From positions 1-49,430 of IMG/VR virus record IMGVR_UViG_3300049048_000108: DNA of 49,430 bases; one strand, 5' to 3'. Source of the DNA: a virus. The number at the start of each line of letters is the position of its first letter. Position 1 is the stretch's first letter. Below, in pieces: positions 3,225 to 48,833 of this stretch. The notes under the pieces were generated by a model. The model made no database searches. It was not told the DNA's origin and saw only the letters and a program-made list of their open reading frames with translations. The translations under genes and the position numbers were made by a program.

Positions 3225-3668
3225 CTACTCCTCCCTGTCCAGGACCCTCGCAGTCAGGAGAGCAGCATCCATCATCGCGAAGCCACCGTACGCCACCATG
3301 GCGGTAGCTGCGGCTGTCGGGTAGTGCAGCACCGAGACTGCGAACAGGGCCATCCACATGATCATCCAGCACATCCCGATCCACAGACCGAGGACGTTGA
3401 GCCACTTGAACGGCGTCATCATGAGCCAGGCGCTCACTACGATGATGACTCCCCAGACCCAGGTCTGCCCGCCGACGAGGTCGATCAGCGGCTGGTAGCT
3501 CGGGAGGCTGAACCGGTCGCGCCCGCCGATCAAGATGGCGAGGCCCAGGCCCCAGTGGACGGCGATCATGATGCCCGTGACCCACTGAGCGAGCAGGCGG
3601 TCTTCCCACGGGCCGACCACGAACCAGGTCCGGGTCCTCTGGAAGACCTTCAAGAGCTTCTCCGTCAT
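3225..3668 (-). CDS. Multi-pass membrane protein
   Basis: 147 aa with about four hydrophobic segments: residues near 30-47 (WVTGIMIAVHWGLGLAILI), 67-84 (VWGVIIVVSAWLMM), 90-112 (LNVLGLWIGMCWMIMWMALF) and 117-138. The N-terminus is basic and cytoplasmic by the positive-inside rule. It sits between the last tail fibre gene and the holin/CHAP cluster, so a lysis or host-envelope role is plausible. No family recognised. Confidence 0.65.
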   Translation of the reverse strand: MTEKLLKVFQRTRTWFVVGPWEDRLLAQWVTGIMIAVHWGLGLAILIGGRDRFSLPSYQPLIDLVGGQTWVWGVIIVVSAWLMMTPFKWLNVLGLWIGMCWMIMWMALFAVSVLHYPTAAATAMVAYGGFAMMDAALLTARVLDREE

Positions 3669-3725
3669 GGCTCGCGGTTGGGTTGCTGGGACACTTCACA
3701 CGCCTCTCGGTTCGACCCCGTGCTC

Positions 3726-6665
3726 TCAGCTCAGGGTACCCGCTGCGCCTCCTTCGAGCTCCTCCAACCGGGCTCGAAGCTCGGCGAGCTCGCGCGCCTG
3801 CTGCTGCACGAGGACGAGGACCCCAGCGGAGATGCGGTCGTACGCCACACCGTTGAGCTCGCCGTCCGTGGTGTACGTCGCCCAGATCGGCGCGTGCTCG
3901 TGCATGTCCTCAGCGATGAAGCCGGGGATCCTGCGGAGACCCTCAGTAGAGCCACCGTTCTCCTCGACCTCGGTGACGTCGAACCAGGTCTTCGGCACCA
4001 CGTTGAGCAGCCCGCTCGCTTCCTCCTCGGTGATGCCTTCCTGCTGGAGCTTCCACTTCGCCAGCGACGTGACGAGCCGCATGCGGTTGTCGAGGGAGGC
4101 ATTCAGGTTGCAGTTCGCGCCAGCGGTCGTCGTGGGCGCGTGCGGGAACTCGACGGTGCCACGGAACTCGCTGATGCCATCGACGTGGGCGAGGTTGACA
4201 CCGCCACCACCGATGTTGATGTTGTAGTTGCCGACGGTGTTATCGTCCGCCATCGCCTGGAGCTCGTTGTTGTCCATGCGGACGTGGGTGCTGGTCGGCG
4301 AGCCGATGCGGATGGCGGGCTTGTTGCCGGAGGCGTTCGAGGCGTCCGAGGTCGACGTGAAGATGGCCTGCTTGAACACCGGGCTGTCGCTGTCGTACCC
4401 AGGGTCGACGGTGTCGCCGGTTCCCCACTCGACCGTGGAGGCGTCGTTGTTCCTGAGAGCGATGAGGATCCAGTTGTCCGGCACCACGAAGTCGCTGGTG
4501 TACGTGACCACGTGGAAGTTCGAGTAGAACGTGTCCTTGCCGGAGGGCTTGACCAGAGCTCCCGCGTCCGCTGCCGTGGCTGCGATGTTGGCGTTGGTGA
4601 GCGCGAAGCTGATGCTGTTCATCGTCATCGCGGTGATGGTTCGCTCGCCGTTCAGGACCGCGCCAGCTCCCGTGAGCCCGCTGATGAACACCCGGTCGCC
4701 CACGGCGAAGTAGTGCGGCGAGACCACCGGGATCGTGGCGACGTTGGAGGTCAGGGAGTAGTTGCCGCTGATGCGCACCACGCCGTTCTTGCGGGGCGTG
4801 TCACCCGCTCCCCAGCCGAACGGGAGCTCGTAGTACAGGGCCTGCCAGGATCCGAGCGTGAGAGTCCCACCGCTCGTGGTGGTGTCGTTGGCTCCTCCGT
4901 GGCCCTTGATCGTGCAGTGCACACCGCCCGTGGCGGCGGAGCTCGCGACGTTGGGTGCCACGACGTCGAAGCTCACGGTGTTGGTGGTGACCTCGCGGGC
5001 GGTCCACTGCCCATCGAACGGGGACCCCACGCCCACCACCGTGATCGTGTCGCCGACTCGGATGCGAGCATTGACGCCGTTGAACGCGCTGAACGTCAGC
5101 GTGGCCTTGTTGGCGTTGAGCACCTTGTTGGTGACGGTCCAGCCGTGCGGGTTGACGATGTCGTGGTGCCCGTTGGGGAAGGTGTTCGGGCTGCGGCCGA
5201 GCGCGATGGCGATGAACCGCTGGCTCCACGAGATGGCGTACGACGAGCTCACGGTGCGGACCCCACCACCCATGAGGTTCGACTGGATCCGCATCACCAT
5301 GTTGCGAAGCTCGTACGCCGTGGTGCTGGCCTCCATGCGCCCGGTGAACAGGTCGAGGACCATCGGGATCTTCACCGGGTCCGGGGCGATGGCGGCCACC
5401 GACGTGGTGAAGCTGACCGGCTCGCTCCACGGCGAGTACGTCGGGTCGGAGCCCTTGGTCCTCACCTGCCACTCGACCGCGACCTGCTCCGGGTAGGTGT
5501 TCGCGGGCATGGTGTAGCTCTGGGTCGCCGTCGTGGTCGGGCCGACGGTGGTCCAGTCGGTCGTGCCGACGAGCCGGTGGCGAAGCTCGAACGCCTGCTG
5601 GGTGTCTCCGCCGACCGTGGCCTGGAAGCTCCAGCTCCACACCTGCTGCAGGGTCGGGTCGACGTTGATGCTGTTCGGGTTCAGGTTGATCGGCGCGTTC
5701 GGCGGTGCGGTGATGCCGGGCGTCTCGGTGGTCTCGCCCGAGTACGCGCTGTACAGCGTGCCCTGCGCGCCGGTCGTGGTCTTGTGGCGGACCTTGTACT
5801 TGACCTTGTCAGCCGCCGACACCGCGTCGGTGTGGCTGGTGATGCCCGCCGTCTTGGTGGTGAGGAGCGACCAGACACCGTTGACGGAGCGCCAGACCTC
5901 GGTGTTGTACTCACCGTACCCAGCGTTGTTGACCCAGGAGACGACCGGCGCGGTGACCGTGCCTCCACGGGACGCCGAGCTCGGAGCTGCAGGAGTGGTG
6001 TAGATGACAGCGGTCTCGACCCAGGCCGAGTCGCCGACGCTGTTCTCCGAGCGGACGCGGTACCGGTACTTCTGGTTGGCGACCGTGGTGCCGCTGTCGG
6101 TGAAGCTCGTCGATCCCCCACCAGGGACACCAACGTCGCCGTTCCACGCGTCGTTGGCGAGCACGTCGTACTGGACCCGGACGCGGTCCCAAGGCTCGCC
6201 GGACGTGTCCCGGTTGGTCCAGGTGATCTTCTGGCTGGTGTCGCTGACGCGGCTGACGCCGACGTTGGTCGGCGCGAGCGGAGAGGCGTACGGGCGCTTC
6301 GGGATCGAGCTCGTGACGGACTTGCTCGGCGTGGCGCCGTTGAAGGCGCCGGACAGCGAGGCCGAGAAGGTCCGCGAGCCCGGCGAGCTGCCGTACTCGT
6401 TGGCGCCGTAGTTGTACGTGTAGCTCTTGGTCTCGCGGAGGACCTGGTTGTTGTTCTGGTTGTTCGAGAAGGTGAGCGATCCGCCGATCGACCCACCGAA
6501 GCTGAGGGTCTGGGTGTCGGACCAGTTGCCCTCGACGTCGACGTAGATCTTGACCGTCGCGGTAGCGGCGCCCTCGCCGTGGCTGACCGCCTCCCAGGAA
6601 ACGTCGATGCCGACGCGGATGCGGTTCGGGCTGCCGCCCTCCCATGCGCCCCACTCGATGGCCAT
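3726..6665 (-). CDS. Tail fibre with S74-like chaperone end
   Basis: 979 aa, the largest fibre gene. The N-terminal about 130 residues resemble tail-attachment beta-structure. From about 120 to 420 are tandem fibronectin-III-like segments (repeated TNVGVSRVSDTSQKITWTN and WSEPVSFTT types). The middle is Thr/Ser/Ala-rich beta-structure. The last about 130 residues contain RRIPGFIAEDMHE, a Y-D-R-I near GVAYDRISAGVLVL and a final coiled coil (QQARELAELRARLEELE), the layout of the peptidase S74 intramolecular chaperone that trimerises and then cleaves itself off fibres. The usual Ser-Asp...Lys cleavage motif is not obvious, so cleavage is uncertain. Likely a receptor-binding or side fibre. Confidence 0.8.
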   Translation of the reverse strand: MAIEWGAWEGGSPNRIRVGIDVSWEAVSHGEGAATATVKIYVDVEGNWSDTQTLSFGGSIGGSLTFSNNQNNNQVLRETKSYTYNYGANEYGSSPGSRTFSASLSGAFNGATPSKSVTSSIPKRPYASPLAPTNVGVSRVSDTSQKITWTNRDTSGEPWDRVRVQYDVLANDAWNGDVGVPGGGSTSFTDSGTTVANQKYRYRVRSENSVGDSAWVETAVIYTTPAAPSSASRGGTVTAPVVSWVNNAGYGEYNTEVWRSVNGVWSLLTTKTAGITSHTDAVSAADKVKYKVRHKTTTGAQGTLYSAYSGETTETPGITAPPNAPINLNPNSINVDPTLQQVWSWSFQATVGGDTQQAFELRHRLVGTTDWTTVGPTTTATQSYTMPANTYPEQVAVEWQVRTKGSDPTYSPWSEPVSFTTSVAAIAPDPVKIPMVLDLFTGRMEASTTAYELRNMVMRIQSNLMGGGVRTVSSSYAISWSQRFIAIALGRSPNTFPNGHHDIVNPHGWTVTNKVLNANKATLTFSAFNGVNARIRVGDTITVVGVGSPFDGQWTAREVTTNTVSFDVVAPNVASSAATGGVHCTIKGHGGANDTTTSGGTLTLGSWQALYYELPFGWGAGDTPRKNGVVRISGNYSLTSNVATIPVVSPHYFAVGDRVFISGLTGAGAVLNGERTITAMTMNSISFALTNANIAATAADAGALVKPSGKDTFYSNFHVVTYTSDFVVPDNWILIALRNNDASTVEWGTGDTVDPGYDSDSPVFKQAIFTSTSDASNASGNKPAIRIGSPTSTHVRMDNNELQAMADDNTVGNYNINIGGGGVNLAHVDGISEFRGTVEFPHAPTTTAGANCNLNASLDNRMRLVTSLAKWKLQQEGITEEEASGLLNVVPKTWFDVTEVEENGGSTEGLRRIPGFIAEDMHEHAPIWATYTTDGELNGVAYDRISAGVLVLVQQQARELAELRARLEELEGGAAGTLS

Positions 6666-6680
6666 CCGTGACTCCTAGGT

Positions 6681-8546
6681 CTAGGTGATGAAGATCGGGT
6701 CGCCCTGCACGAAGTTGAGGACAGAGTCGCCAACCGCCGAGCCGACCCGCTGCACCATCGTACCCACGTCCTGCGGCGGCGTCGAGCTAACGGCGCCCGC
6801 CTCGGTGGAGAGGAACTGGGTGCCGGGCTCCAGGTCAAACAGCAGCGGGTTGTACCCGTGGCTGTAGACGTACGCTACGGCGCCGAGAGCGGCGCTCTCC
6901 AGGACGAAGCCGTGGGCCTCCAGGCCCAGGGTGGCCGACGCCTTCCGAGCCCGGAACTGGCCACCCTCGTTGGAGATGTGGACCAGCTCGCCACCCGTGA
7001 GGTCTTCCAGGGCGGTGGCCGGGACACCCGCGATCTTGTCGATGGGGATGGAGCGGTCGAGGATCCGCTCGCCGTCCATGTACCCGAAGGTGATCTGGCT
7101 GGCGTCGAGGTTGACGAGCGTGTCACCCATGAAGAGCTTCTCGACCCACGAGCCGTCATCGAGCTCGAAGACCTTGGTGACCTTGCCGCCCTCCATGTGC
7201 GACTCCACGGCGTGCGCGGTGCCGAGTCCGTCCTCACCCCAGCGCGCGTCGTACAGCGTGCCGTCGAAGTAGCGGCCGAGGATGTTGCTCAGCTCCAGCA
7301 TCCCACCGTCGACGCGCATCGTGCTGCTCTCGTTGGGACTCACGAAGAGGAGCGTGGCGGTCGCGGCGGTGACCGGAGCTTCGGCGGTGACCCAGGCGCG
7401 GGTCCAGTCCGGGTCGGCAGGCAGGGTGGTGGCGGCACCGTCGGAGCTGGACAGCGGAGTGCCACCCGCGTCGTACCACTGCAGCCGGGCGAAGCAGCCA
7501 GCGCCCACTCCTGCCATGAGCTTCGCGAAGATCGAGCCGGTGTAGATGGCGCCGCCGACGACCGGCGTGCGCACGCCGCCGTTGTCGTAGGCGTACGTGT
7601 GCTCGACGTCGCTGGTGTTGGTCACGAGCTCGACGGCGTACGACCCGACGATGGCGTCGGCGTCGAGGACCCTGCTCTGGGTGAGGTTCGAGGTCGCCCA
7701 GCCGGTCGTGTTGGTCTCGAAGCTCGGGTTGACGACCAGGTTCACCCGCGCCCGCGTGCGGGTGAACCAGATGGAGCCCTCGTTCCTCTGCAGGAGGACC
7801 TGGTTGCCCTCGCTGTCGAGGATCGGGTTGCCGTCGGCGTCGGTGGCGACGTACTCCACGTCCTCGGGCAGCGGCTCGTAGTCGCTCATGGAGACTCGAC
7901 CGTCAGCGGTGTTGGCGAGGTTCCTGGCCTGGGTGGCGGTCTCCTCGACGTTCTGCAGGCGCCCGCTCTGGGTGTCGTCGCCGAGCACGTCGACGAGCTG
8001 GCCGGTGTTGTTGTTGACGTCGCTGCGAAGCTCCACCAGGGCGTCGTCGACGGCAGGGTTGGTCGGCACCGTCTCCGGGTCCAGGAACTCCCCATCGAGG
8101 CTGGGCTCCTCGCCGATGAGGTTGACCACCGTCCAGTCGCCGTTCTGGAGCTCCAGGACAACGGGCTCCTGGCCCTCCGGGTCGCGCACGCCGTCGGTGA
8201 TCTTGTCGTACAGGTCGCCGCCGATCAGCGCCGAGACCGGCTCGTCGTACCCGTTGACCTCGACCAGCGCCCACTTCTCGCGGGTGGCGGGCAGCGTGTA
8301 GACCTGGGTGCCTGCGTCGTAGTCTGCGGTGAGGCCCGGCGCCGGGATCGTCACGGTGTTGGCCACCGGGTCCACCGCCAGCACGGCGTACAGCTCCACG
8401 TCGACCTCGACCTCAGTGACCGGGTCCTCGGCGTCGGTGAAGTCGCTGGCGTCGGTGAGCTGCAGGACCGTGTCGCCAGTGAGGTGATCGGTGTCGAGCT
8501 CGTCGCCGGTCCGGGTGATCGAGACCTCCAGGATGAAGCCCTGCAT
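6681..8546 (-). CDS. Minor tail protein (tip/fibre)
   Basis: 621 aa, starting at ATG 8546 by a TGATG overlap with the upstream gene. The N-terminus (LEVSITRTGDELDTDHL) is followed by an acidic linker. Residues about 260-440 hold NLVVNPSFETNTTGWA and a beta-sandwich, a carbohydrate-binding-module-like domain often seen in actinophage tail proteins. The C-terminus (VYSHGYNPLLFDLEPGTQFLST) is compact beta-structure. Its position after the tape measure and tail hub proteins supports a tail-tip or fibre role in host binding. Assignment is by domain style and order. Confidence 0.7.
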   Translation of the reverse strand: MQGFILEVSITRTGDELDTDHLTGDTVLQLTDASDFTDAEDPVTEVEVDVELYAVLAVDPVANTVTIPAPGLTADYDAGTQVYTLPATREKWALVEVNGYDEPVSALIGGDLYDKITDGVRDPEGQEPVVLELQNGDWTVVNLIGEEPSLDGEFLDPETVPTNPAVDDALVELRSDVNNNTGQLVDVLGDDTQSGRLQNVEETATQARNLANTADGRVSMSDYEPLPEDVEYVATDADGNPILDSEGNQVLLQRNEGSIWFTRTRARVNLVVNPSFETNTTGWATSNLTQSRVLDADAIVGSYAVELVTNTSDVEHTYAYDNGGVRTPVVGGAIYTGSIFAKLMAGVGAGCFARLQWYDAGGTPLSSSDGAATTLPADPDWTRAWVTAEAPVTAATATLLFVSPNESSTMRVDGGMLELSNILGRYFDGTLYDARWGEDGLGTAHAVESHMEGGKVTKVFELDDGSWVEKLFMGDTLVNLDASQITFGYMDGERILDRSIPIDKIAGVPATALEDLTGGELVHISNEGGQFRARKASATLGLEAHGFVLESAALGAVAYVYSHGYNPLLFDLEPGTQFLSTEAGAVSSTPPQDVGTMVQRVGSAVGDSVLNFVQGDPIFIT

Positions 8547-9760
8547 CACGCTCGCCTCCGCTTCTTCCTGGTCTTCTTCCGCTTCTGCGCCGCCGCGCGG
8601 CTCTTGCCCTTCGGGCGCACGTTCCTCACGTAGCCCACGGACATGTCGCCGCCCGCCGTGAGCGGGATGGCGAACTCCATCAGCCGGTGGTTGCCTGCGA
8701 ACTTGGTCGTGTTGCAGCGTACCACGTCCATCTCCTCCAGGTGAGGGATGACCAGGGTGTCGTACGCCACTTCGACGGACTGGAGCAGCCCGCTCGCGAG
8801 CTCGCGCTTGGCCCGCGCCTTGGCCTCGGCGTCGTTGTCGACGTTGTCGTCCTCGATCACCACGGGCAGGTACCGAGGCCCGCCGACGCGGCCGAGAGCC
8901 CACGGAGACAGGGGATGCTGGCGGTCGGCCACCAGGCGCGCGTGCGGGCGCTTCTTGGTGGTCTTGCCCTTCTTCTTCTTGGGCTTCTTGCCCAGGACCT
9001 CGACCGCGTTCACCACGTCGTCGATGGAGAATCCCACGTCCGGCTCGGTCTTGATGGAGCGACCCTCGACGAACGTGAAGCTCACGCCGCTCGGGCGCTT
9101 CCTCATCCGGCAGATGCCCAGCCCGTCATAGAAGAGCTGGTACCCGATGGACGCGGCGAGCTGCTTGGCGACCGCCCACGGGAGCTTGTCACCGCCGACC
9201 GAGACGTTGCGCGGGAGCTTCGCCTTGGAGCTCGGGAGCCTCACCCTGCTGGGCGCCTCGCCCATCATGTTGACGAGGATGTAGCGGATGGCGCTGACGA
9301 TCGTCGCGCCCTTCTTGAACGTCTTCTCGTTCCACGCCGTCGACAGGCCGAAGATCTCCTTGCCCTGCGCCTCGGCCTTGACGATGGCGCCGGTCCGCTC
9401 CAGCTTGGTCAGCGGTCCGGTGAAGACCGGCGTGGTGTACCGCACGGTCTCCATCGGGTTGATGATGGCGTACTTCACCTGGATCATCCGGTCGGCGAAG
9501 AGGGCACCGTCGTCAGGGCTCTTGCTGTCCAGGTGGAGAGCTCCGGTCGGGTCGAGCAGGTCCATGTCGAGACCACGGGTGACCTCCGCCCCAGCGTCGA
9601 CGGTGACCTGTCCGTCCAGCAAGCGAGCCGAGAGCTCCTCGCCGATGCTGGTGTGGTTGAGGTCCATGAGCTGCAGGCGGACGTCGATCCGGTGGTGGGT
9701 CTGGAGGAGGTCGTGGAACGCCGCCTGCCCGTTGGCGTTCAGGCCCAGGTCGATGGCCAT
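8546..9760 (-). CDS. Minor tail protein (hub-like)
   Basis: 404 aa; ATG 9760 overlaps the upstream stop. Residues about 1-150 are beta-rich (RIDVRLQLMDLNHTSIGEEL, VRYTTPVFTGPLTKLERTG), and a segment WAVAKQLAASIGYQLFYDGLG near 200 resembles the middle of tail-hub/Gp27-like proteins. A Lys-rich stretch lies near 280 and the C-terminus is very basic (KKTRKKRRRA). In siphophages, the second or third gene after the tape measure usually encodes the hub or a baseplate protein, which fits here. Function is inferred from order and weak similarity. Confidence 0.65.
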   Translation of the reverse strand: MAIDLGLNANGQAAFHDLLQTHHRIDVRLQLMDLNHTSIGEELSARLLDGQVTVDAGAEVTRGLDMDLLDPTGALHLDSKSPDDGALFADRMIQVKYAIINPMETVRYTTPVFTGPLTKLERTGAIVKAEAQGKEIFGLSTAWNEKTFKKGATIVSAIRYILVNMMGEAPSRVRLPSSKAKLPRNVSVGGDKLPWAVAKQLAASIGYQLFYDGLGICRMRKRPSGVSFTFVEGRSIKTEPDVGFSIDDVVNAVEVLGKKPKKKKGKTTKKRPHARLVADRQHPLSPWALGRVGGPRYLPVVIEDDNVDNDAEAKARAKRELASGLLQSVEVAYDTLVIPHLEEMDVVRCNTTKFAGNHRLMEFAIPLTAGGDMSVGYVRNVRPKGKSRAAAQKRKKTRKKRRRA

Positions 9761-11595
9761 CAGAAGTCCACCTGGAAGAAGCGGAAGCTCACCAGGTACT
9801 CCACCGTGCCGTCGGCGTAGGCCAGCGGCGTGTCGGTGACGTCGAGGATCACCACCCGCATGACCTTGTCGACCCACACGAGCTTCAGCACCATGCCAGG
9901 GTGGTCCTTGAACCACTCCAGGTCCGTGAGCTGCTGGTCCGCCGAGACACCGGGCACGGTGTCGTTGAGGAGGACACCGGAGACCTCGCCCTCGTACCCA
10001 CGGTGGTTCTGCGTGACGAGCACGGGCGGCGCGTCGCCGAGCAGGTAGTGGATGGCCGACTCCTCGGTCCGCTCGGCTGCCACGTTCGGGTTGAACAGGT
10101 AGATGAGCCGGTCGTTGTCGGTCTCGGAGAGCGTGGTGGTGATGGGCTTGACGAGCCCAGCCACGGTCGGGTTGCCCGAGCTCACCACGCCGTTGACCTT
10201 CCGGGCCACGGACCAGGTGTGGTTGCGGCGCGGGCGCGCCTCGTCGTCGTGGTACACGTAGTGGGTGCCGCTCTCCAGCACGTCCACCGGGAAGACCTCG
10301 TCGACCGCCTTGCCGTTGCGGAGGATCACGTAGCTGTCCGGCGCCGTGGCGTCGTCCCACTCCAGCGTCATCCTCGACTGGTAGGTGTGGGTGGTCCCGG
10401 TGAAGCCGGTGACCGTGGCGACGGTGTTGCTGAGCTCGAAGGTGAAGTCCCGGAACGCCTCAACGTACGTGGGGTCATCGGGCACGCTGACGCGGTCGAT
10501 GGTGTCCCAGATGCGGACGATGAGCCGGTACACCTTGCCGACCTCGGTGAGCTTGCCCGGAGGCGGCGTCACGGAGGTCTCGGTGGACGTGATCTCGCCG
10601 CTGTTCCAGATGTACTTCTCGGGCGTCTCGGGCGTGGCGATGAGCACCTGGTACTTGAGCTGGGTGCGCCCGGTGAAGGTCCACGAGAAGGGCGGCGTCG
10701 GCTCCGTGACGAAGTCGTTGGGGTCGGCTGCCGGGTTGGTGATCGTGAGGGTGCCCTTGGAGGTCCTCGTGAAGCTCGCCGGGTCGCTCCAGCCCGACGG
10801 GATCCCTGCTCCGTCGACGTTCTGGACGCGCCACCAGAGCACGGCGTCGGCGGCGAGCCCGCCGTACGCGGTGTCGTCGAGGTCCCACTGCGGAATGGTG
10901 GCGGGCACGTTGGCGTCCAGGAGGTCCGGCGTGTTGGCGTCCGCCAGGGCCTCGGTGCTGAACAGGCGGAGGTTGGCGCTCTGCATGGTCTGGTCGCCAG
11001 CCGGGTCCACGAAGTCCCAGCGGAGGGTGGGCTTGGCGATGGAGACGGCGAGACCGTTGTCCGGGATGAGGACCTCGGGCGTGTCGGGCGCGTCGCTCCA
11101 GGTGATCTCCAGCATCGGGCGGTACTGGCTCGGACCCTGCGCCGAGTACAGCCACTTGGCGGCAGCACCCGTGGCGCTGATGCGGAAGCCGTACCACGGA
11201 GCTCCGTCGGCCACCTGCTGCATCACGTCGGTGACGTTGAACTCCCAGGCGGTGCCCGCAGCCGCGCTGGTCTTGGCCACGGTCTTGGTAGCTCCGGTCA
11301 CGCCGGGCTTGTTGTTCCAGTTGACCCGGTTGACGCTGAACTTCGAGGAGAGTCGCTGCAGGGACAGGGTGACCGCGCCCGCGAAGCCCGCGCCCGAGTA
11401 GACCACCAGGCGCGCGTTGAGGATCGTGGTCTTCGACATGCCCGACGGCACGCCGAAGTAGATGTACCCGAAGCGCGTGTTCGCCGAGCTTCCGTCAGCG
11501 AGGTACAGGCGCTGAGCGGTGCCGTAGTTGCGGCTGGGATACTTCTCGGACACGTAGGTGTCCGAGGCGTTCCTCAGCGGGATCGGATCACCCAT
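9760..11595 (-). CDS. Minor tail protein with DNRLRE domain
   Basis: 611 aa, directly after the tape measure and overlapping it by one base. Residues about 8-170 match a DNRLRE-type (carbohydrate-binding, family 96-like) domain: ASDTYVSEKYPSRNYGT, RFGYIYFGVPSG, WNNKPG, and a closing YRPMLEITW. Two to three fibronectin-III-like segments follow, with FSWTFTGRTQLKYQVLIA and WDDATAPDSYVILRNG. The C-terminal about 130 residues (LIYLFNPNVAAERTEES to FRFFQVDF) resemble a distal-tail-type domain. It likely links the tail tube end to tip proteins and may bind cell-wall glycans. A DNRLRE domain at the N-terminus of a distal-tail-position protein is unusual. Confidence 0.7.
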   Translation of the reverse strand: MGDPIPLRNASDTYVSEKYPSRNYGTAQRLYLADGSSANTRFGYIYFGVPSGMSKTTILNARLVVYSGAGFAGAVTLSLQRLSSKFSVNRVNWNNKPGVTGATKTVAKTSAAAGTAWEFNVTDVMQQVADGAPWYGFRISATGAAAKWLYSAQGPSQYRPMLEITWSDAPDTPEVLIPDNGLAVSIAKPTLRWDFVDPAGDQTMQSANLRLFSTEALADANTPDLLDANVPATIPQWDLDDTAYGGLAADAVLWWRVQNVDGAGIPSGWSDPASFTRTSKGTLTITNPAADPNDFVTEPTPPFSWTFTGRTQLKYQVLIATPETPEKYIWNSGEITSTETSVTPPPGKLTEVGKVYRLIVRIWDTIDRVSVPDDPTYVEAFRDFTFELSNTVATVTGFTGTTHTYQSRMTLEWDDATAPDSYVILRNGKAVDEVFPVDVLESGTHYVYHDDEARPRRNHTWSVARKVNGVVSSGNPTVAGLVKPITTTLSETDNDRLIYLFNPNVAAERTEESAIHYLLGDAPPVLVTQNHRGYEGEVSGVLLNDTVPGVSADQQLTDLEWFKDHPGMVLKLVWVDKVMRVVILDVTDTPLAYADGTVEYLVSFRFFQVDF

Positions 11596-38938: not shown

Positions 38939-39192
38939 AGGTCAGCCTGGACACCGTGGAGATCACCGACGAGCAGCGCGAGCAGCTCGCCAACGTCCTC
39001 GACGGCAAGGTCAGCAAGCGGAAGGCCACCCGCGCCGAGGCCAAGGAGTTCATCTGGCACTACGGTGACACGTGGGCCGAGACGCTCACCGACATGGTGA
39101 ACGACAGCACCGGCACGCCCGAGGACGACGCCGAGGACGACGACGACGAGGACCTCATCGGCGACAGCAGCGAGCTGGACGACCTGCTGTGA
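38935..39192 (+). CDS. Acidic-tailed hypothetical protein
   Basis: 85 aa; GTG 38935 (GTGA overlap). Residues 1-55: VEITDEQREQLANVLDGKVSKRKATRAEAKEFIWHYG. The tail is nearly all acidic with EDLIGDSSELDDLL at the end. The terminal DDLL resembles the acidic tips of the SSB-like (DDLI) and primase (DDLI) proteins. No family recognised. Confidence 0.6.
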   Translation: MKVSLDTVEITDEQREQLANVLDGKVSKRKATRAEAKEFIWHYGDTWAETLTDMVNDSTGTPEDDAEDDDDEDLIGDSSELDDLL

Positions 39193-39599
39193 CCACGCGC
39201 CTGACCTGGGACGAGTGGGGCCTGGAGCTCGCCCGTGCGGTAGCTCTCCGTGCCGACTGCACTCGCCGCCAGGTCGGCGCGGTCCTCATGACCCTGGACC
39301 ACAGCATCGTGGCCACCGGGTACAACGGCGCGGCGCCCGGACAGCCGGGCTGCCTGACCGCAGGTGCCTGCCCTCGTGGGCAGAGCGACGTCGCTCCCGG
39401 CTCGTCGTACGACACGGGAGCAGGCACCTGCATCGCCATCCACGCTGAGCAGAACGCGCTGCTCCGGGCGAGCTGGGACGACATGTTCGGCTCGACCCTG
39501 TACGTCACCGACGAGCCCTGCCAGGGCTGCTGGCGGACCATCACCGCCACACCGATCGCCTGGGTCATCTGGCCCAGTGGAACCAGGAGGAACCGATGA
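39189..39599 (+). CDS. dCMP deaminase
   Basis: 136 aa; GTG 39189 (GTGA overlap). It carries the zinc cytidine/deoxycytidylate deaminase motifs: CTRRQVGAVL, ATGYNGA, HAEQNALL with His85 and Glu87, and TDEPCQGCW with Cys111 and Cys114. It converts dCMP to dUMP, the substrate for thymidylate-type methyl or hydroxymethyl transfer by the TS-like enzyme at 44801. That makes it the likely entry step of the thymidine modification pathway. Extra Cys (GCLTAGAC) may bind a second zinc, as in T4-type enzymes. Confidence 0.9.
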   Translation: MTTRLTWDEWGLELARAVALRADCTRRQVGAVLMTLDHSIVATGYNGAAPGQPGCLTAGACPRGQSDVAPGSSYDTGAGTCIAIHAEQNALLRASWDDMFGSTLYVTDEPCQGCWRTITATPIAWVIWPSGTRRNR

Positions 39600-40060
39600 G
39601 CACGATCCAGCCGGGCGCCAAGTGCTGGTGCGGAGGGCGGACCGCCCTCGACCGCAGCAGCGCGGGAGTCGCCTTCCAGCGTTGCGCCGAGAGTGAGTTC
39701 CACCAGTGGGACGCCACCGGGCGCCGCGAGAAGCACACCAAGCTGTACGTCGCTGGCCCGATGACCGGGTACGAGGAGGCCAACTACCCTGCCTTCAACC
39801 TCGCCGCCGAGCGGCTGGAGGGCGCCGGGTACGAGGTCTGCAACCCTGCCACGGCGGTGGTCGGCACCGAGGCCCACTACGTCGACTTCATCCGTGAGGA
39901 CTTGCGGATGATGCTGGACTGCCACGGCGTCGCCGTCATCGACAACTGGTGGGAGAGCTCGGGAGCTCGCAACGAGGTCAGCGTGGCCGGGATCCTCCTG
40001 ATGCCGGTGAGGACCGTGGCCGAGTGGCTGGAGCGCGCCCACCAGGAGCTCGGCGCGTGA
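39596..40060 (+). CDS. DUF4406-type nucleotide enzyme
   Basis: 154 aa; ATG 39596 behind CCAGGAGGAACCG. Residues about 1-35 form a Cys pair (KCWCGG) plus RCAE, a small zinc knuckle. Residues about 50-150 match the DUF4406/nucleoside 2-deoxyribosyltransferase-like fold: LYVAGPMTGYEEANYPAFN, AHYVDFIREDLRMMLDCHGVAVIDNWWESSGARNEV. Such proteins may hydrolyse or rearrange nucleotides, and often sit with dCMP deaminase in phages. A role in pool shaping for modified bases is plausible. Confidence 0.75.
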   Translation: MSTIQPGAKCWCGGRTALDRSSAGVAFQRCAESEFHQWDATGRREKHTKLYVAGPMTGYEEANYPAFNLAAERLEGAGYEVCNPATAVVGTEAHYVDFIREDLRMMLDCHGVAVIDNWWESSGARNEVSVAGILLMPVRTVAEWLERAHQELGA

Positions 40061-43695: not shown

Positions 43696-43890
43696 ATGGC
43701 TGAAGAGACTGTGGAGCTCCACAACTGCACCGTGCTCATGGCGTCGGGCGACACCGACGAGTGGGTGGACATCAAGGACGCCGTGATGGAGGTCGACCTC
43801 GGCGGCGCCCTGATGATCGTGGGCAGCGACGACAAGGTCGCCGCCATCTACGCGCCGGGCATGTGGATGAAGGTGGAGTACGACCAGTGA
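43696..43890 (+). CDS. Hypothetical 64-aa acidic protein
   Basis: 64 aa; ATG 43696 behind GATGAGGAACC. It is beta-rich: VELHNCTVLMASGDTDEWVDI, then DAVMEVDLGGALMIVGSDDKVAAIYA. It could be a small OB- or SH3-like fold. It overlaps the modification cluster start (GTGA at 43887). No family recognised. Confidence 0.6.
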   Translation: MAEETVELHNCTVLMASGDTDEWVDIKDAVMEVDLGGALMIVGSDDKVAAIYAPGMWMKVEYDQ

Positions 43891-44786
43891 GCCTGAACCT
43901 GGAGATGGCGCTGACGTACCTCGACTTCGTCACCGAGCGCCACCGCATCTGGGAGGCGCGCCAGCGCGGCGAGGCCCAGCCGTGGACCAAGGACCCCATC
44001 CTCGCCAGCCGGAAGTTCACCAACGTCTTCCGGGTGCTGGACCCCGGCTCGCAGTTCGTGTTCAAGCTGGAGAGCGACGACCCGACCGAGACGCTGATGC
44101 GCCTGTTCCTGTACCGGCACACCAACCTCCCGAGCGCGTGGGAGCACGTGGCGGGCGAGCTCGGCGAGTGGCCCTCCCTGGACAACCTCGCTGAGGTCGA
44201 GCTGGTGTGGAAGCTCCACCGGGACAACGGCAACCGGGTCTTCTCCAGCGCGTACATGGTGTACCCGCAGAGCTCGGTGAAGGGCACCGACAAGGTCGAG
44301 TCCATCATCGACCTGACCCGGCGCCTGTTCGTCAGCGGCAAGCGGGTGGCGTACGACTTCCTCAACGCCACCAGCCAGGCCGACCGGTTCGCCGCGCTCC
44401 GCACCAACAAGGGCGTGGCCGACTTCATGAGCATGCAGATCCTCACGGACTTCGGGTACACCCGGCACGGCGCCGACGTCGAGGACCAGTTCGTCGTGGC
44501 CGGGCCTGGCTCCAAGCGCGGCGCGGCGCTGGTGTGGCCCGAGCTCACTCCTCGTGAGGTCATCCGCTGGGCGCAGGAGGCGGTCCACGGGCTGCCCGAC
44601 TGCCCGGTGATCGAGCCGCACGACGGCGTGCTCCGGAAGCCCTCTGCTATGGACATCCAGAACACCTTCTGCGAGTTCAGCAAGTACGTGCGGTACCTCC
44701 ATCGTCCGTCCCGAGAGCAGCCGTACCGACCCGCCCACCCCAACGTAGCATTGGCACCGGTCCTGCCGGGCCACTGGAACCGCTGA
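43887..44786 (+). CDS. hmdU-DNA-kinase helical-domain/AADT-like protein
   Basis: 299 aa; GTG 43887. The N-terminal pattern ALTYLDFVTERHRIWEARQRG, then QPWTKDPILASRKFTNVFRVLD resembles the helical domain seen with 5-hydroxymethyl-dU DNA kinases and the related amino-acid:DNA transferases (formerly alpha-glutamyl/putrescinyl thymine pyrophosphorylase); I recall this signature (PWT-x-DP-x-L...F-x-NV-x-R) from those families. Later helices include DKVESIIDLTRRLFVSGKR and FMSMQILTDFGYTRHG. In hmdU-kinases it is usually fused to a P-loop domain; here the P-loop protein is separate at 48231. It probably positions 5-hm-dU in DNA. Family call from memory of sequence style. Confidence 0.65.
   Translation: MSLNLEMALTYLDFVTERHRIWEARQRGEAQPWTKDPILASRKFTNVFRVLDPGSQFVFKLESDDPTETLMRLFLYRHTNLPSAWEHVAGELGEWPSLDNLAEVELVWKLHRDNGNRVFSSAYMVYPQSSVKGTDKVESIIDLTRRLFVSGKRVAYDFLNATSQADRFAALRTNKGVADFMSMQILTDFGYTRHGADVEDQFVVAGPGSKRGAALVWPELTPREVIRWAQEAVHGLPDCPVIEPHDGVLRKPSAMDIQNTFCEFSKYVRYLHRPSREQPYRPAHPNVALAPVLPGHWNR
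44745..44757 (+). promoter_or_regulatory. Promoter-like word GTAGCATTGGCAC
   Basis: TAGCAT (44746-44751) inside the 3' end of the preceding gene would start transcription about 43 bases before GTG 44801. It is 12 of 13 identical to the word at 40666. Confidence 0.45.
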
Positions 44787-44800
44787 GAGGAACCGCAACC

Positions 44801-46429
44801 GTGTACCACAACCACGTCTTCAAGGACATCACCGAGGGCCTGCCGAAGCTCCTGGCCGAGCTGGAGCAGCACGGCGAGGAGGTCGGCAGCCGCGCCGGGC
44901 GCGTCAGGGAGCTCACCCACGTGGGCATCACCCTGACCGAGCCGTGGCGCCGCGAGCTCCTCGTCGAGGCCCGGAAGCCCAACCTCGCTGCGCAGATCGC
45001 CGAGACCATGTGGGTCCTGGCCGGGCGGAGCGACATCGAGTTCCTGAGCCACTACCTCCCGCGCGCCGCCGACTTCTCGGACGACGGCAAGACGTGGCGC
45101 GCCGGGTACGGTCCGCGCCTCCGTGGCTGGCCTCCGTGTGAGCAGAGTGAGCCGATCGACCAGCTCCGCACGGTCTTCGAGCTCCTCAAGCGCGACCCGC
45201 TGTCTCGGCAGGCGGTCGCGAGCATCTGGGACCCGGCGCTGGACTACCGCGCCAGCAAGGACATCCCCTGCAACAACTGGCTGAGCTTCTCCTCGCGCCT
45301 GGGCCACCTGGACCTGCACGTCGCCATCCGCTCCAACGACGCCATCTGGGGATGGAGCGGCATCAACGCCTTCGAGTGGAGCGCGCTGCAGGAGATCATG
45401 GCTGCCCTGCTGGGGATCTCCGTGGGCGGGCTGCACTTCTCGACGACGAGCTTCCACCTGTACGACCGGCACTGGGCCAAGGCCGACAAGATCATCGGCG
45501 CCAACGAGGGTCCGGTGGACCCGGCGTGGGACAGCCCGCGCTTCACCGTCGACGAGCGCGCCGCTGACCGGTACGCCGACCGGCTCGACTGGTTCGACCA
45601 GCTCGTGATCGACTGGTTCGCCATCGAGCAGCTCATCAGGGAAGGGATCCCGGCGCACGAGGAGGCGGTGGACAACTTCCCGGAGCCGATGCTGCAGAGC
45701 TGGCTGCGGGTCATCCAGTGGTGGTGGACCAGCGAGCGCGAGTACCTCGCCCGGCTGGAGGGCTGCCGCCTGGAGCGCGCGGCGTCGTACGCCGTGCAGC
45801 CGCCCGAGCGCGACACCGTCGAGCTTCGCGCCGACGACCGCGTGGTCCGGCACCTGCGCCTCGCGGTCGAGCCGACCGACGACGACCACGAGCCGAGCGA
45901 CTTCCTCACCCAGCTCTGCCAGCTCCACCTGGAGAAGGAGGCGGCGTACGGCGGCTCGTGGAAGAAGCGCGGCGAGATGCTCGGCATCATGGCCAACATC
46001 GCCCGCAAGGTCGACCGGCTCATCGGCGGCGAGACCGCCGACGAGACCAGCGCCGACACCGCTGGTGACCTCTTCGTGTACCTCGCGAAGTACCGCACCT
46101 GGCTGTCGGACCAGGGCCTCGGACGCCTGTCGGCGCTGGAGGATCTGGCCGAGCACGCCAAGCACGCCAACACCTACATGGAGCAGGTGGAGGAGTGGAT
46201 GGAGGGCGAGTACGACCGGCAGGAGTTCAACGCTGCTGGGCTCGCCGCCACCCTCACCAGCGACTTCGACGTGCTGGAGCAGGAGGTCCTCGCCAAGCGC
46301 GCCGACCGCTTCGAGCTCGTCGACTCCATGGCCAAGGACGCCTACCTCCTCGCCCGGATGCTCTGGGACCACGAGGCTGCCCTCCGTGAGGACCTGGGCG
46401 ACGACTACCGTGGAGCCGACGTTGACTGA
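44801..46429 (+). CDS. TS-like dUMP hydroxymethylase fused to Nmad1-like domain
   Basis: 542 aa; GTG 44801 behind GAGAGGAACCGC. Residues about 20-300 have the thymidylate synthase fold: GRVREL, ASIWDP, KDIPCNNW with the catalytic-type Cys157, IRSND (residues 176-180), an Asn near 189 and HLYDRH (His219/Tyr221). Retention of the Asn favours a uracil substrate over cytosine, hence dUMP hydroxymethylation (or methylation). Residues about 365-435, FLTQLCQLHLEKEAAYGGSWKKRG, NIARKVDRLIGG, resemble Nmad1/DUF1599, a nucleotide-modification-associated domain. The C-terminus is helical. One extra residue between Asp180 and Asn189 versus E. coli ThyA is odd. It is central to the proposed pathway. Confidence 0.75.
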   Translation: MYHNHVFKDITEGLPKLLAELEQHGEEVGSRAGRVRELTHVGITLTEPWRRELLVEARKPNLAAQIAETMWVLAGRSDIEFLSHYLPRAADFSDDGKTWRAGYGPRLRGWPPCEQSEPIDQLRTVFELLKRDPLSRQAVASIWDPALDYRASKDIPCNNWLSFSSRLGHLDLHVAIRSNDAIWGWSGINAFEWSALQEIMAALLGISVGGLHFSTTSFHLYDRHWAKADKIIGANEGPVDPAWDSPRFTVDERAADRYADRLDWFDQLVIDWFAIEQLIREGIPAHEEAVDNFPEPMLQSWLRVIQWWWTSEREYLARLEGCRLERAASYAVQPPERDTVELRADDRVVRHLRLAVEPTDDDHEPSDFLTQLCQLHLEKEAAYGGSWKKRGEMLGIMANIARKVDRLIGGETADETSADTAGDLFVYLAKYRTWLSDQGLGRLSALEDLAEHAKHANTYMEQVEEWMEGEYDRQEFNAAGLAATLTSDFDVLEQEVLAKRADRFELVDSMAKDAYLLARMLWDHEAALREDLGDDYRGADVD

Positions 46430-47345
46430 GCACAGCCTCGGCAAGCTCCACGCCGACTACCTCCGGTGGCACCCGGCTCAGGTGGCCAGCAAGGACATCG
46501 ACCCGGTGTACCCGGTCCTGTCCTTGCTGGCCGACGCCTGGGACCTCGACGAGGAGGAGCGCGCCTGGCTGTGCTTCACCCACGTGGTGTGGTACCACCC
46601 TGGCAGCACCCTCGTCGGGTACGAGCTGATGCCGGACTACACGTGGATCCCCAGCAGCGATGAGGGTCTCTGGAAGAGCGGGCTGCTGGAGCTCCCGTGC
46701 GAGACCGAGCGCCGTGGCCACCGGCCGAAGCAGCCGCTGATCAACCACCTGCTGGGCCTGCGCAAGACCTTCACCGAGAGTGAGGGATGCCGGGCCTGGG
46801 TGGACAAGGCTGTCGGGACCAGCGACGACCCGCACCAGCGGTGGCTCGACCTCAACCAGGCCCTCACCACGCTGGTCGGCAACGGGCGGTGGGCGGCGTA
46901 CAAGACCGCCGAGATGCTGCAGAAGATCTGCGACGTGCCGGTGGAAGCTCCGGACGCCGGGCACCGGTACAGCAGCGGTCCTCGGAAGGGCCTGATGATC
47001 CTGGAGCCGCGCTGCCCGGTGGGCCAGACCGAGGACGACATCGCCACCCTCGACATGATGACGGCGATGTGGGCCGACCTGCTGCAGGAGCCCGACATCG
47101 CCCAGGTCGAGACCTCGCTGTGCGACTTCAACAGCCTGGTCCACGGGCGCTACTACCTCGGGCACGACATCGACTCGATGCAGCACGCCTTCCTGGCCAT
47201 GGGCGACCGCCTGCCGAAGGAGGCGTGGGAAGCCCGAGAGGCCACGTTCGACAGCAAGTTCCTCGGCGAGCTCAACGGCTGGACCGGAGTGCGCAAGGAC
47301 GCCAACCGCCACTACAAGCTGACTGGAGAGCTCCTGTATGTCTGA
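46422..47345 (+). CDS. Amino-acid:DNA transferase-like protein
   Basis: 307 aa from TTG 46422, which has GGAG six bases upstream; GTG 46410 is an alternative. The N-terminus LHADYLRWHPAQVASKDIDPVYPVLSLLADAW, then WLCFTHVVWYHPGSTLVGYELMP, resembles clade 2 of the alpha-glutamyl/putrescinyl thymine pyrophosphorylases, later renamed amino-acid:DNA transferases, which replace pyrophosphate on 5-PPOm-dU with an amino acid. Later: RWAAYKTAEMLQKICDVPVE, SSLCDFNSLVHGRYYLGHDID. It would add the amino acid side group to the phosphorylated base. Assignment from memory of the family pattern and strong gene context. Confidence 0.65.
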   Translation: MTEHSLGKLHADYLRWHPAQVASKDIDPVYPVLSLLADAWDLDEEERAWLCFTHVVWYHPGSTLVGYELMPDYTWIPSSDEGLWKSGLLELPCETERRGHRPKQPLINHLLGLRKTFTESEGCRAWVDKAVGTSDDPHQRWLDLNQALTTLVGNGRWAAYKTAEMLQKICDVPVEAPDAGHRYSSGPRKGLMILEPRCPVGQTEDDIATLDMMTAMWADLLQEPDIAQVETSLCDFNSLVHGRYYLGHDIDSMQHAFLAMGDRLPKEAWEAREATFDSKFLGELNGWTGVRKDANRHYKLTGELLYV

Positions 47346-48234
47346 CCACCTGCACATCGAGGGCATGGGGATCCTGGGGTCCATGCTGGCCCGGCGCTGC
47401 CACGAGGAGGGCATCCCCTTCACGTGGAACGACACGCGCGAGCAGTTCGTGGCCTGGCCGGTGAGCACCGGGCTGGCCTACCCGGACGGCGACCCGATCA
47501 ACCAGCGCGGGCTGCGCCGCTGGCACGAGGTCCTGGCCAGCGACCTCATCGCCGACGAGGCGACCACGGCGCCGTACCTGTTCGCCCACAAGAACCACCC
47601 GCACGGCGGCAAGCAGGGAATCGCTCACGACTATGGGGTCCTCCGCATGAGCAACGAGCTCGCGGTGTCCCTGAACCCGGTGGCCTTCGTGGAGCGGACC
47701 CGCGAGGCGTTCGCTGCGCAGGAGCGGTCCGAAGCTCCTGACAGCGCCACGGTCGTCGTGTGCCACACCACGCCCGAGCGCGGCGACGGGTACATGTGGG
47801 GATGGGTCGGGCGCGTGACCTTCGACCTGCCGGACGAGGTCGCCGCCGACCTCCTCGGCGAGCAGCCCGCGCTGTACGCCAAGGCCCACCGGTTCAACCT
47901 CACGTACGCCTACCCGATCCCTGGCACGGGCCAGTGGTGGGCGGGCTCTGTTCTGCAGCTCCAGAGGGAGCCGCGCGTGGCCGAGCCGGACCGCCTGATG
48001 AAGCTGTACGAGGAGTGGAAGGCCAACGCGGGTGAGCTCCTCGGCATCCGCAACATCATGCTCGACGAGCTCGGGCAGGGCTGGCGCCCGCGCGGCAAGG
48101 GCGGCGTCCACGGTGACTTCGAGCTCGCCGAGAAGCACGGCCACCGCTGGCTGATGCCGGTGATGCCCACCGACGGTGTCCGGCGCGGCTGGCTGGTCGT
48201 CGACGACTTCCTGGACCGCTGGAGCCTGCTGTGA
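47338..48234 (+). CDS. FAD-binding oxidoreductase/lyase-like protein
   Basis: 298 aa; ATG 47338 overlaps the transferase gene by 8 bases. The N-terminus is a Rossmann dinucleotide motif HIEGMGILGSMLARRCHEEG (G-x-G-x-x-G at 9-14), followed by IPFTWNDTREQFVAWPVSTGLAYPDGD as in glycine-oxidase-like (DAO-type) flavoproteins. The C-terminal half has ALYAKAHRFNLTYAYPIPG and GWLVVDDFLDRWSLL. Published work on thymidine hypermodification includes flavin-dependent lyases that act on the installed amino acid. I infer a similar trimming step here, possibly leaving an aminomethyl group. Confidence 0.65.
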   Translation: MSDHLHIEGMGILGSMLARRCHEEGIPFTWNDTREQFVAWPVSTGLAYPDGDPINQRGLRRWHEVLASDLIADEATTAPYLFAHKNHPHGGKQGIAHDYGVLRMSNELAVSLNPVAFVERTREAFAAQERSEAPDSATVVVCHTTPERGDGYMWGWVGRVTFDLPDEVAADLLGEQPALYAKAHRFNLTYAYPIPGTGQWWAGSVLQLQREPRVAEPDRLMKLYEEWKANAGELLGIRNIMLDELGQGWRPRGKGGVHGDFELAEKHGHRWLMPVMPTDGVRRGWLVVDDFLDRWSLL

Positions 48235-48833
48235 CCCGCGCGCTGTACGTCCTCGGCGGCGCGGGCGCGGGCAAGTCCACGTTCATGAGCGAGCTGCTCG
48301 ACGAGCTGCTGGCCGGTGAGGACATGGGTGAGCTGGAGGACCTGTGGAGCAAGCGGAACGCCAAGGCGCTCGTCACGCTTCGCGGGCACCGGCTGTTCGC
48401 GCCCGACGGCACCGCGCCGGGCCTGTACCTCGGCTGCTGGCGCGAGAGCTTCCCTGGCACCGATGGCCTGGACCGCGCCAGCTCGGCGACCGGCGTGGAC
48501 TGGCTGATGAGCCCGGACGTGGAGCTCCCGGAGTTCATCGTGGCGGAGGGCGCCACGCTGGCCACGCGCCCGTTCCTCGGCGCGCTCGCGGCCACCACCG
48601 AGCTCCTGGTGGTCCACCTGCACGCGCCGGACGACGTCAAGCGTGAGCGGTTCGCCTCGCGCGGCTCGGACCAGGCTGAGAGCTTCTGGAAGGGCACGGC
48701 CACCCGAGCGGCCAACCGGTACGCGGAAGCCTGCGAGAGCGGCGTCTCCACGCTCTCCGTGGACACCAGCGACCCGGTGGCGTGGGAGGTTGCCCTGGAC
48801 CTGTCCATCACGCACGTGATTGGCAGAAAGTAG
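48231..48833 (+). CDS. P-loop kinase, candidate 5-hmdU DNA kinase
   Basis: 200 aa; GTG 48231 (GTGA). Walker A: YVLGGAGAGKST (residues 6-17). The signature LYLGCWRESFPGTDGLDRAS near 65-85, then FIVAEGATLATRPFL and LLVVHLHAP, SRGSDQAESFW, fits the P-loop kinase of 5-hydroxymethyl-dU DNA kinases (R-x-x-F-P-G-T-D type). It would phosphorylate the hydroxymethyl group in DNA to activate it for amino acid transfer. It lacks the usual fused helical domain, which is encoded separately at 43887. It is the last gene of the modification cluster. Confidence 0.7.
   Translation: MTRALYVLGGAGAGKSTFMSELLDELLAGEDMGELEDLWSKRNAKALVTLRGHRLFAPDGTAPGLYLGCWRESFPGTDGLDRASSATGVDWLMSPDVELPEFIVAEGATLATRPFLGALAATTELLVVHLHAPDDVKRERFASRGSDQAESFWKGTATRAANRYAEACESGVSTLSVDTSDPVAWEVALDLSITHVIGRK

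Follow-up and report, generated by a model that had tools for sequence, protein, structure and literature searches.

A predicted thymidine hypermodification operon of chimeric make-up in a probable actinobacterial phage

Two routes lead to 5-hmdU. The Tet/JBP route hydroxylates T within DNA, and the TS route hydroxymethylates the nucleotide. Thymidine hypermodification is reportedly described for the Pseudomonas phages M6, YuA and PaMx11 in work by Lee and colleagues from 2018 and 2022. In the known pathway, 5-hmdU in DNA is phosphorylated by a 5-hmdU kinase and then modified (PMC6449724). For phage Tonitrus, a thymidine hypermodification system of five genes has been proposed by its authors (PMC11955845). 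We analysed a phage operon of this already known pathway type; what is new here is its chimeric make-up.

The window, which is the whole stretch of DNA analysed, spans one entire IMG/VR record of 49,430 bases with a G+C content of 68%. Much of its left half is taken up by endolysin, terminase, portal, capsid and tape-measure genes pointing leftward. The right half carries helicase/primase, nuclease, SSB and PolA genes, all rightward. No close DNA relative was found among 50,697 phage records. The G+C content and the relatives of its genes indicate that the host of this tailed phage is probably an actinobacterium. When bacterial genomes were scanned with the TS fusion described below, the matches covered the TS domain only and none was a full-length fusion; the scan therefore pointed to no host. 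A search for end repeats in the record gave none, and the record may be incomplete. It ends 0.6 kb past gpE, and an additional enzyme could therefore be missing.

The operon consists of five tight, co-directional genes, gpA to gpE (Table 1). A sequence-only reading had described five adjacent, overlapping genes. All five were recovered at or near their predicted positions, with overlaps of 4-8 bases at three of the four junctions and a 14-base gap at the remaining one. Translation of gpC may alternatively start at a GTG at 46410. The upstream dCMP deaminase of that reading is present as well, and would supply dUMP. A DUF4406 gene adjoins it and possibly shares in nucleotide-pool remodelling.

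Table 1. Positions of the operon genes and of related features in the window
Feature	Coordinates	Strand	Basis
dCMP deaminase	39189..39599	+	Pfam dCMP_cyt_deam_1 3.3e-17; phrog_2369 1e-47
DUF4406 gene	39596..40060		DUF4406 2.8e-21; PHROG nucleoside 2-deoxyribosyltransferase 6e-30
gpA to gpE, whole operon	43887..48833	+	
gpA, HMUDK_hel, helical partner of 5-hmdU DNA kinase	43887..44786	+	PF18723 1.9e-51
gpB, TS-type dUMP hydroxymethylase (most likely) with helical C-terminal extension	44801..46429	+	PF00303 (Thymidylat_synt) 8.6e-21
gpB, C-terminal extension	45821..46426		predicted all-helical
gpC, AADT, Tet/JBP-operon clade	46422..47345	+	PF18724 (ADDT) 1.4e-22
gpD, FAD enzyme, D-amino-acid/glycine-oxidase fold, subfamily FADd	47338..48234	+	AlphaFold model, Foldseek
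gpE, P-loop kinase (Ploopntkinase3), presumed 5-hmdU DNA kinase	48231..48833	+	PF18751 1.5e-13

The enzyme predicted to make 5-hmdU is gpB. Its TS domain is N-terminal (residues ~20-240). The nearest characterised relative is SPO1 gp29, annotated as a dUMP hydroxymethylase, which is 41% identical to the catalytic domain (1e-42 class). The best relative of solved structure is a CMP hydroxymethylase, ranking above thymidylate synthases. Cys157 is, as had been read, the catalytic-type Cys; it lies within KDIPCNNW, comparable to KDRPCNLL in SPO1 gp29. Asn189, inside RSNDAIWGWSGIN, is the same in SPO1 gp29 and YuA gp17, and the equivalent residue in T4 dCMP hydroxymethylase (gp42) is Asp. The identity of this residue suggests that dUMP is the most likely substrate, and disfavours gpB as a dCMP hydroxymethylase. 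Alternatively, gpB could be an ordinary thymidylate synthase, with the other genes a decaying or silent remnant and normal thymine in the DNA. True thymidylate synthases do belong to the fold family of gpB, but gpB is closer to the SPO1 enzyme than to those of solved structure. In addition, none of the five reading frames is broken, they overlap and are strongly biased towards G+C at third positions, and gpC retains the invariant motifs of its clade. This alternative is therefore very unlikely.

Full-length kin of gpB, including the C-terminal extension, is found in L059 with 56% identity. The extension contains YG.SW...GE and DT..DL..Y..KY, which are invariant in 16 relatives, and has no match among solved structures. 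The Nmad1 (DUF1599) profile gives a marginal match in one of the 16 relatives (E=0.08) and none in the window. Profile and solved-structure searches thus do not support Nmad1 as a firm identity, and a relation between the two is a guess. The other families named in the sequence-only reading, HMUDK_hel, AADT and TS, are found in the window by Pfam searches, and gpD has no Pfam match.

Phosphorylation of 5-hmdU is assigned to gpA and gpE. By family, HMUDK_hel and Ploopntkinase3 are putative components of a 5-hmdU DNA kinase. The first gene had been read as hmdU-kinase-like or AADT-like. The profile search matches HMUDK_hel only, which supports the former and rules out the latter; AADT matches the third gene only. 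The gpA protein is 52-54% identical to HMUDK_hel of the TS-route loci L062 and L068. HMUDK_hel is present in all three TS-route phage genomes tested and in none of the five Tet/JBP-route ones. The expected FPGTD signature is present in gpE, along with the Walker A motif GGAGAGKST.

Some annotations of related genes differ from their matches. The family phrog_800 is labelled terminase small subunit, yet it matches gpE. In Phelemich (L004), gp5 (3330-3869) is annotated as terminase small subunit and is actually a P-loop kinase, and gp2 (810-1673) is annotated as queuine tRNA-ribosyltransferase and matches Tet/JBP. Both are likely mis-annotations. Microbacterium phage Kauala (L010) contains a TS-like gene (6204-7019), HMUDK_hel (8539-9414) and a Ploopntkinase3 kinase (9407-10012), all on the minus strand. 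Although near HMUDK_hel and Ploopntkinase3, its TS-like enzyme has Asp at the Asn site of dUMP enzymes, like T4 dCMP hydroxymethylase. These genes are possibly a hydroxymethylcytosine DNA kinase system.

The third gene product, gpC, is an amino acid:DNA transferase (AADT) by family, as the sequence-only reading had proposed. Besides its ADDT profile match, it is related to the solved AADT 25qc (phmmer 3e-6) and is 52% identical to the AADT of Kozie, gp2. IMG/VR scans with gpC or gpD as single proteins returned nothing, and the loci of their kin were recovered with alignments instead.

No Pfam, PHROG or NCBIfam match was found for gpD at the cut-offs used, and gpD alone has no phmmer match in the PDB. 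Its relatives among phage records, at 32-36% identity, are in Gordonia and Rhodococcus phages. An AlphaFold model was built from an alignment with 26 enzymes of the same operon slot. The model (mean pLDDT 89.5) adopts a D-amino-acid/glycine-oxidase (DAO) fold, consistent with the FAD-binding enzyme proposed earlier. Foldseek matched it to D-amino-acid oxidase, glycine oxidase and the NGTO lyase 8z2o/8z79, all with probability 1.00. The latter is the N-alpha-glycinylthymidine FAD-dependent lyase gp47/NGTO of PaMx11. The match to 8z2o has an E value of 2.5e-9 and a TM score of 0.63-0.66, and general amino-acid oxidases outscore it. A profile of the whole set of operon-slot enzymes has the NGTO lyase as its first match, over the full length (1.5e-18). 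The gpD subfamily, FADd, taken alone shows a weak sequence link to the NGTO-like members (hhalign E 2.5e-7; hmmsearch not significant). A tblastn search with FADd reaches Gordonia and Rhodococcus phages only, and no Pseudomonas phage. The phmmer, hhalign/hmmsearch and tblastn searches thus do not establish that gpD and the PaMx11 lyase belong to one subfamily.

The genomic neighbourhood also connects the two flavoenzyme groups. FADd and NGTO-like enzymes fill one operon slot, beside one AADT clade. An AADT gene lies directly upstream of the FADd gene in every evaluable IMG/VR locus; L109 was left out since its contig starts at the FAD gene. This adjacency ties FADd to the AADT product, and not to a particular reaction. 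FADd is an uncharacterised flavoenzyme subfamily beside amino acid:DNA transferases, and is amenable to in vitro work.

Two operon architectures were found. A profile of the gpC clade identified 45 IMG/VR loci. Nearly all of those with a FAD enzyme also have Tet/JBP and the kinase, and usually ParB. Their order, with small variations, is ParB, Tet/JBP, AADT, FAD enzyme, kinase, and the same gene set is present in Kozie, CloverMinnie, Tonitrus and Phelemich. A profile of gpB identified 35 loci. Most full-fusion loci with a nearby AADT have the order HMUDK_hel, TS fusion, AADT of the Montesquieu clade, PLP enzyme, kinase. These TS-route loci are L059-L062, L064, L065, L068, L069, L085 and L078, the last truncated at its left end. 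HMUDK_hel and the TS fusion also occur with no recognisable AADT within the available flanks (L066, L067, L070, L072-L074, L077, L080). L066 and L077 (LuckyBarnes) have glycosyltransferases in place of the AADT, which hints at 5-hmdU derivatives that are glycosylated or differ in some other way.

Compared to these architectures, the operon in the window is a chimera. The gpA, gpB and gpE genes are of the TS route. The gpC and gpD genes are kin to the Tet/JBP-route pair and occupy the position of AADT and PLP enzyme. The most economical explanation is a replacement of AADT+PLP by AADT+FAD, and we consider such a cassette exchange highly probable. Only short matches, at 25-35% identity, connect gpC to the AADTs of the Montesquieu clade. 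The gpE kinase is 53% identical to that of the TS-route locus L059, versus 39% to that of Kozie. In trees, gpC is placed among Tet/JBP-route rows (support 95) and gpE among TS-route rows (support 99). AU tests reject the opposite placements (gpC, p=1.3e-5; gpE with Kozie/L014, p=0.008), with p-values that are indicative because the groups were named after the neighbourhoods were known and the trees were quick searches. The sister of gpD is L032, a Tet/JBP-route locus (support 100). It is plausible, though not proved, that gpC and gpD arrived jointly, as the closest kin of gpC are Kozie/L014 and that of gpD is L032. No Tet/JBP homologue was detected in the 49.4-kb record, which may be incomplete, with either Pfam PF12851 or a 39-sequence profile at E<=10. 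Likewise, and in agreement with the sequence-only reading, this possibly incomplete record has no member of the PALP, radical SAM or acetyltransferase families.

A chimeric order could also arise if the assembly had joined two phages, and just one contig with the gene order of the window was found. However, such an artefact needs two misjoins, both at gene borders and both such that the genes still overlap, by 8 bases at one and by 4 at the other. Neither G+C nor third-position G+C changes across the cassette junctions. The upstream genes and the kinase match those of L059-L062, which places genes matched in TS-route phages on either side of the cassette. We regard a misassembly as extremely unlikely. 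The TS route with this AADT clade and FADd was seen in the window only. Eight other contigs (L105, L106, L111, L112, L115, L117, L120, L121) have a YuA-type AADT directly followed by FADd, and then HMUDK_hel and TS. These rule out the TS route with FADd as a combination restricted to the window.

The proposed hypermodification cluster is borne out by profile for four genes, which fall in its defining families, and by fold and neighbourhood for the flavoenzyme. We are highly confident that the operon encodes AADT-type thymidine hypermodification of some kind. Part of the thymine in the phage DNA is, judged from these sequences, very likely rebuilt to an amine-bearing base. The explanation as a whole, a chimeric 5-hmdU/AADT operon producing such a base, is probable.

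From the families, the gpD fold, the gpB residues, the neighbourhoods and the trees, we infer the following reactions, amino acid and final base. The dCMP deaminase and host enzymes would provide dUMP. It would be converted by gpB to 5-hmdUMP, then brought to the triphosphate and incorporated into DNA. No thymidylate-type kinase family for 5-hmdUMP was found in the record, so this step would be carried out by a host enzyme or an unrecognised one. In DNA, gpE and helical gpA would phosphorylate part of the 5-hmdU. Next, gpC would attach an amino acid, most likely glycine, whose amino group would displace the phosphate. Finally, gpD may oxidatively cleave the appended amino acid to leave 5-aminomethyl-dU. 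A parallel in tRNA is the flavin-dependent activity of MnmC, which converts carboxymethylaminomethyl-U to aminomethyl-U (PMC9626948). By this analogy, 5-aminomethyl-dU is our best, and tentative, guess for the main product.

The same pathway may instead have another end product, if the amino acid is not glycine or if gpD acts on the adduct by oxidation but frees no aminomethyl-dU; the base would then be an undescribed one. The sequence distance of FADd from the solved lyase and its restriction to Gordonia and Rhodococcus phages in tblastn are consistent with this, as is the distance of the gpC clade from the YuA transferase (23% identity). On the other hand, gpD shares the fold of the lyase, and the two enzyme groups share an operon slot next to the same AADT clade. 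We lean against this alternative, while taking it seriously.

Our chimera reading suggests that tailoring genes can move between the two routes to 5-hmdU. The loading and trimming genes could form an exchangeable pair that works with any 5-hmdU source, here a Tet/JBP-route pair brought into a TS-route operon, with a flavoenzyme that may make an undescribed base. We put this forward as a speculative proposal. The operon as read here would itself add a new gene combination to a chemically rich form of counter-defence.

The window shares with M6/YuA/PaMx11 a TS of dUMP-hydroxymethylase type, HMUDK_hel, a P-loop kinase, an AADT and a flavoenzyme of DAO fold. In YuA the kinase is of the HMUDK_HMUD1 family, and both PALP and radical SAM are present. 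The window, in contrast, has Ploopntkinase3, an AADT 23% identical to that of YuA, a separate FAD subfamily and no PALP or radical SAM. Kozie, MO526, CloverMinnie, Tonitrus and Phelemich share with it the AADT clade (42-52% identity), the FAD enzyme and Ploopntkinase3. Unlike the window, they start with a Tet/JBP oxygenase and lack HMUDK_hel; in the window a TS-type hydroxymethylase is found, and no detectable Tet/JBP gene. At the position of AADT and FAD enzyme, Glutamicibacter phage Montesquieu and the TS-route loci have an AADT from a different clade together with a PLP enzyme, and in Montesquieu itself the parts of the operon are scattered across ~10 kb. The order of the DUF2800 nuclease, SSB, PolA, HMUDK_hel, TS fusion and kinase genes is shared by the window, Montesquieu and these loci.
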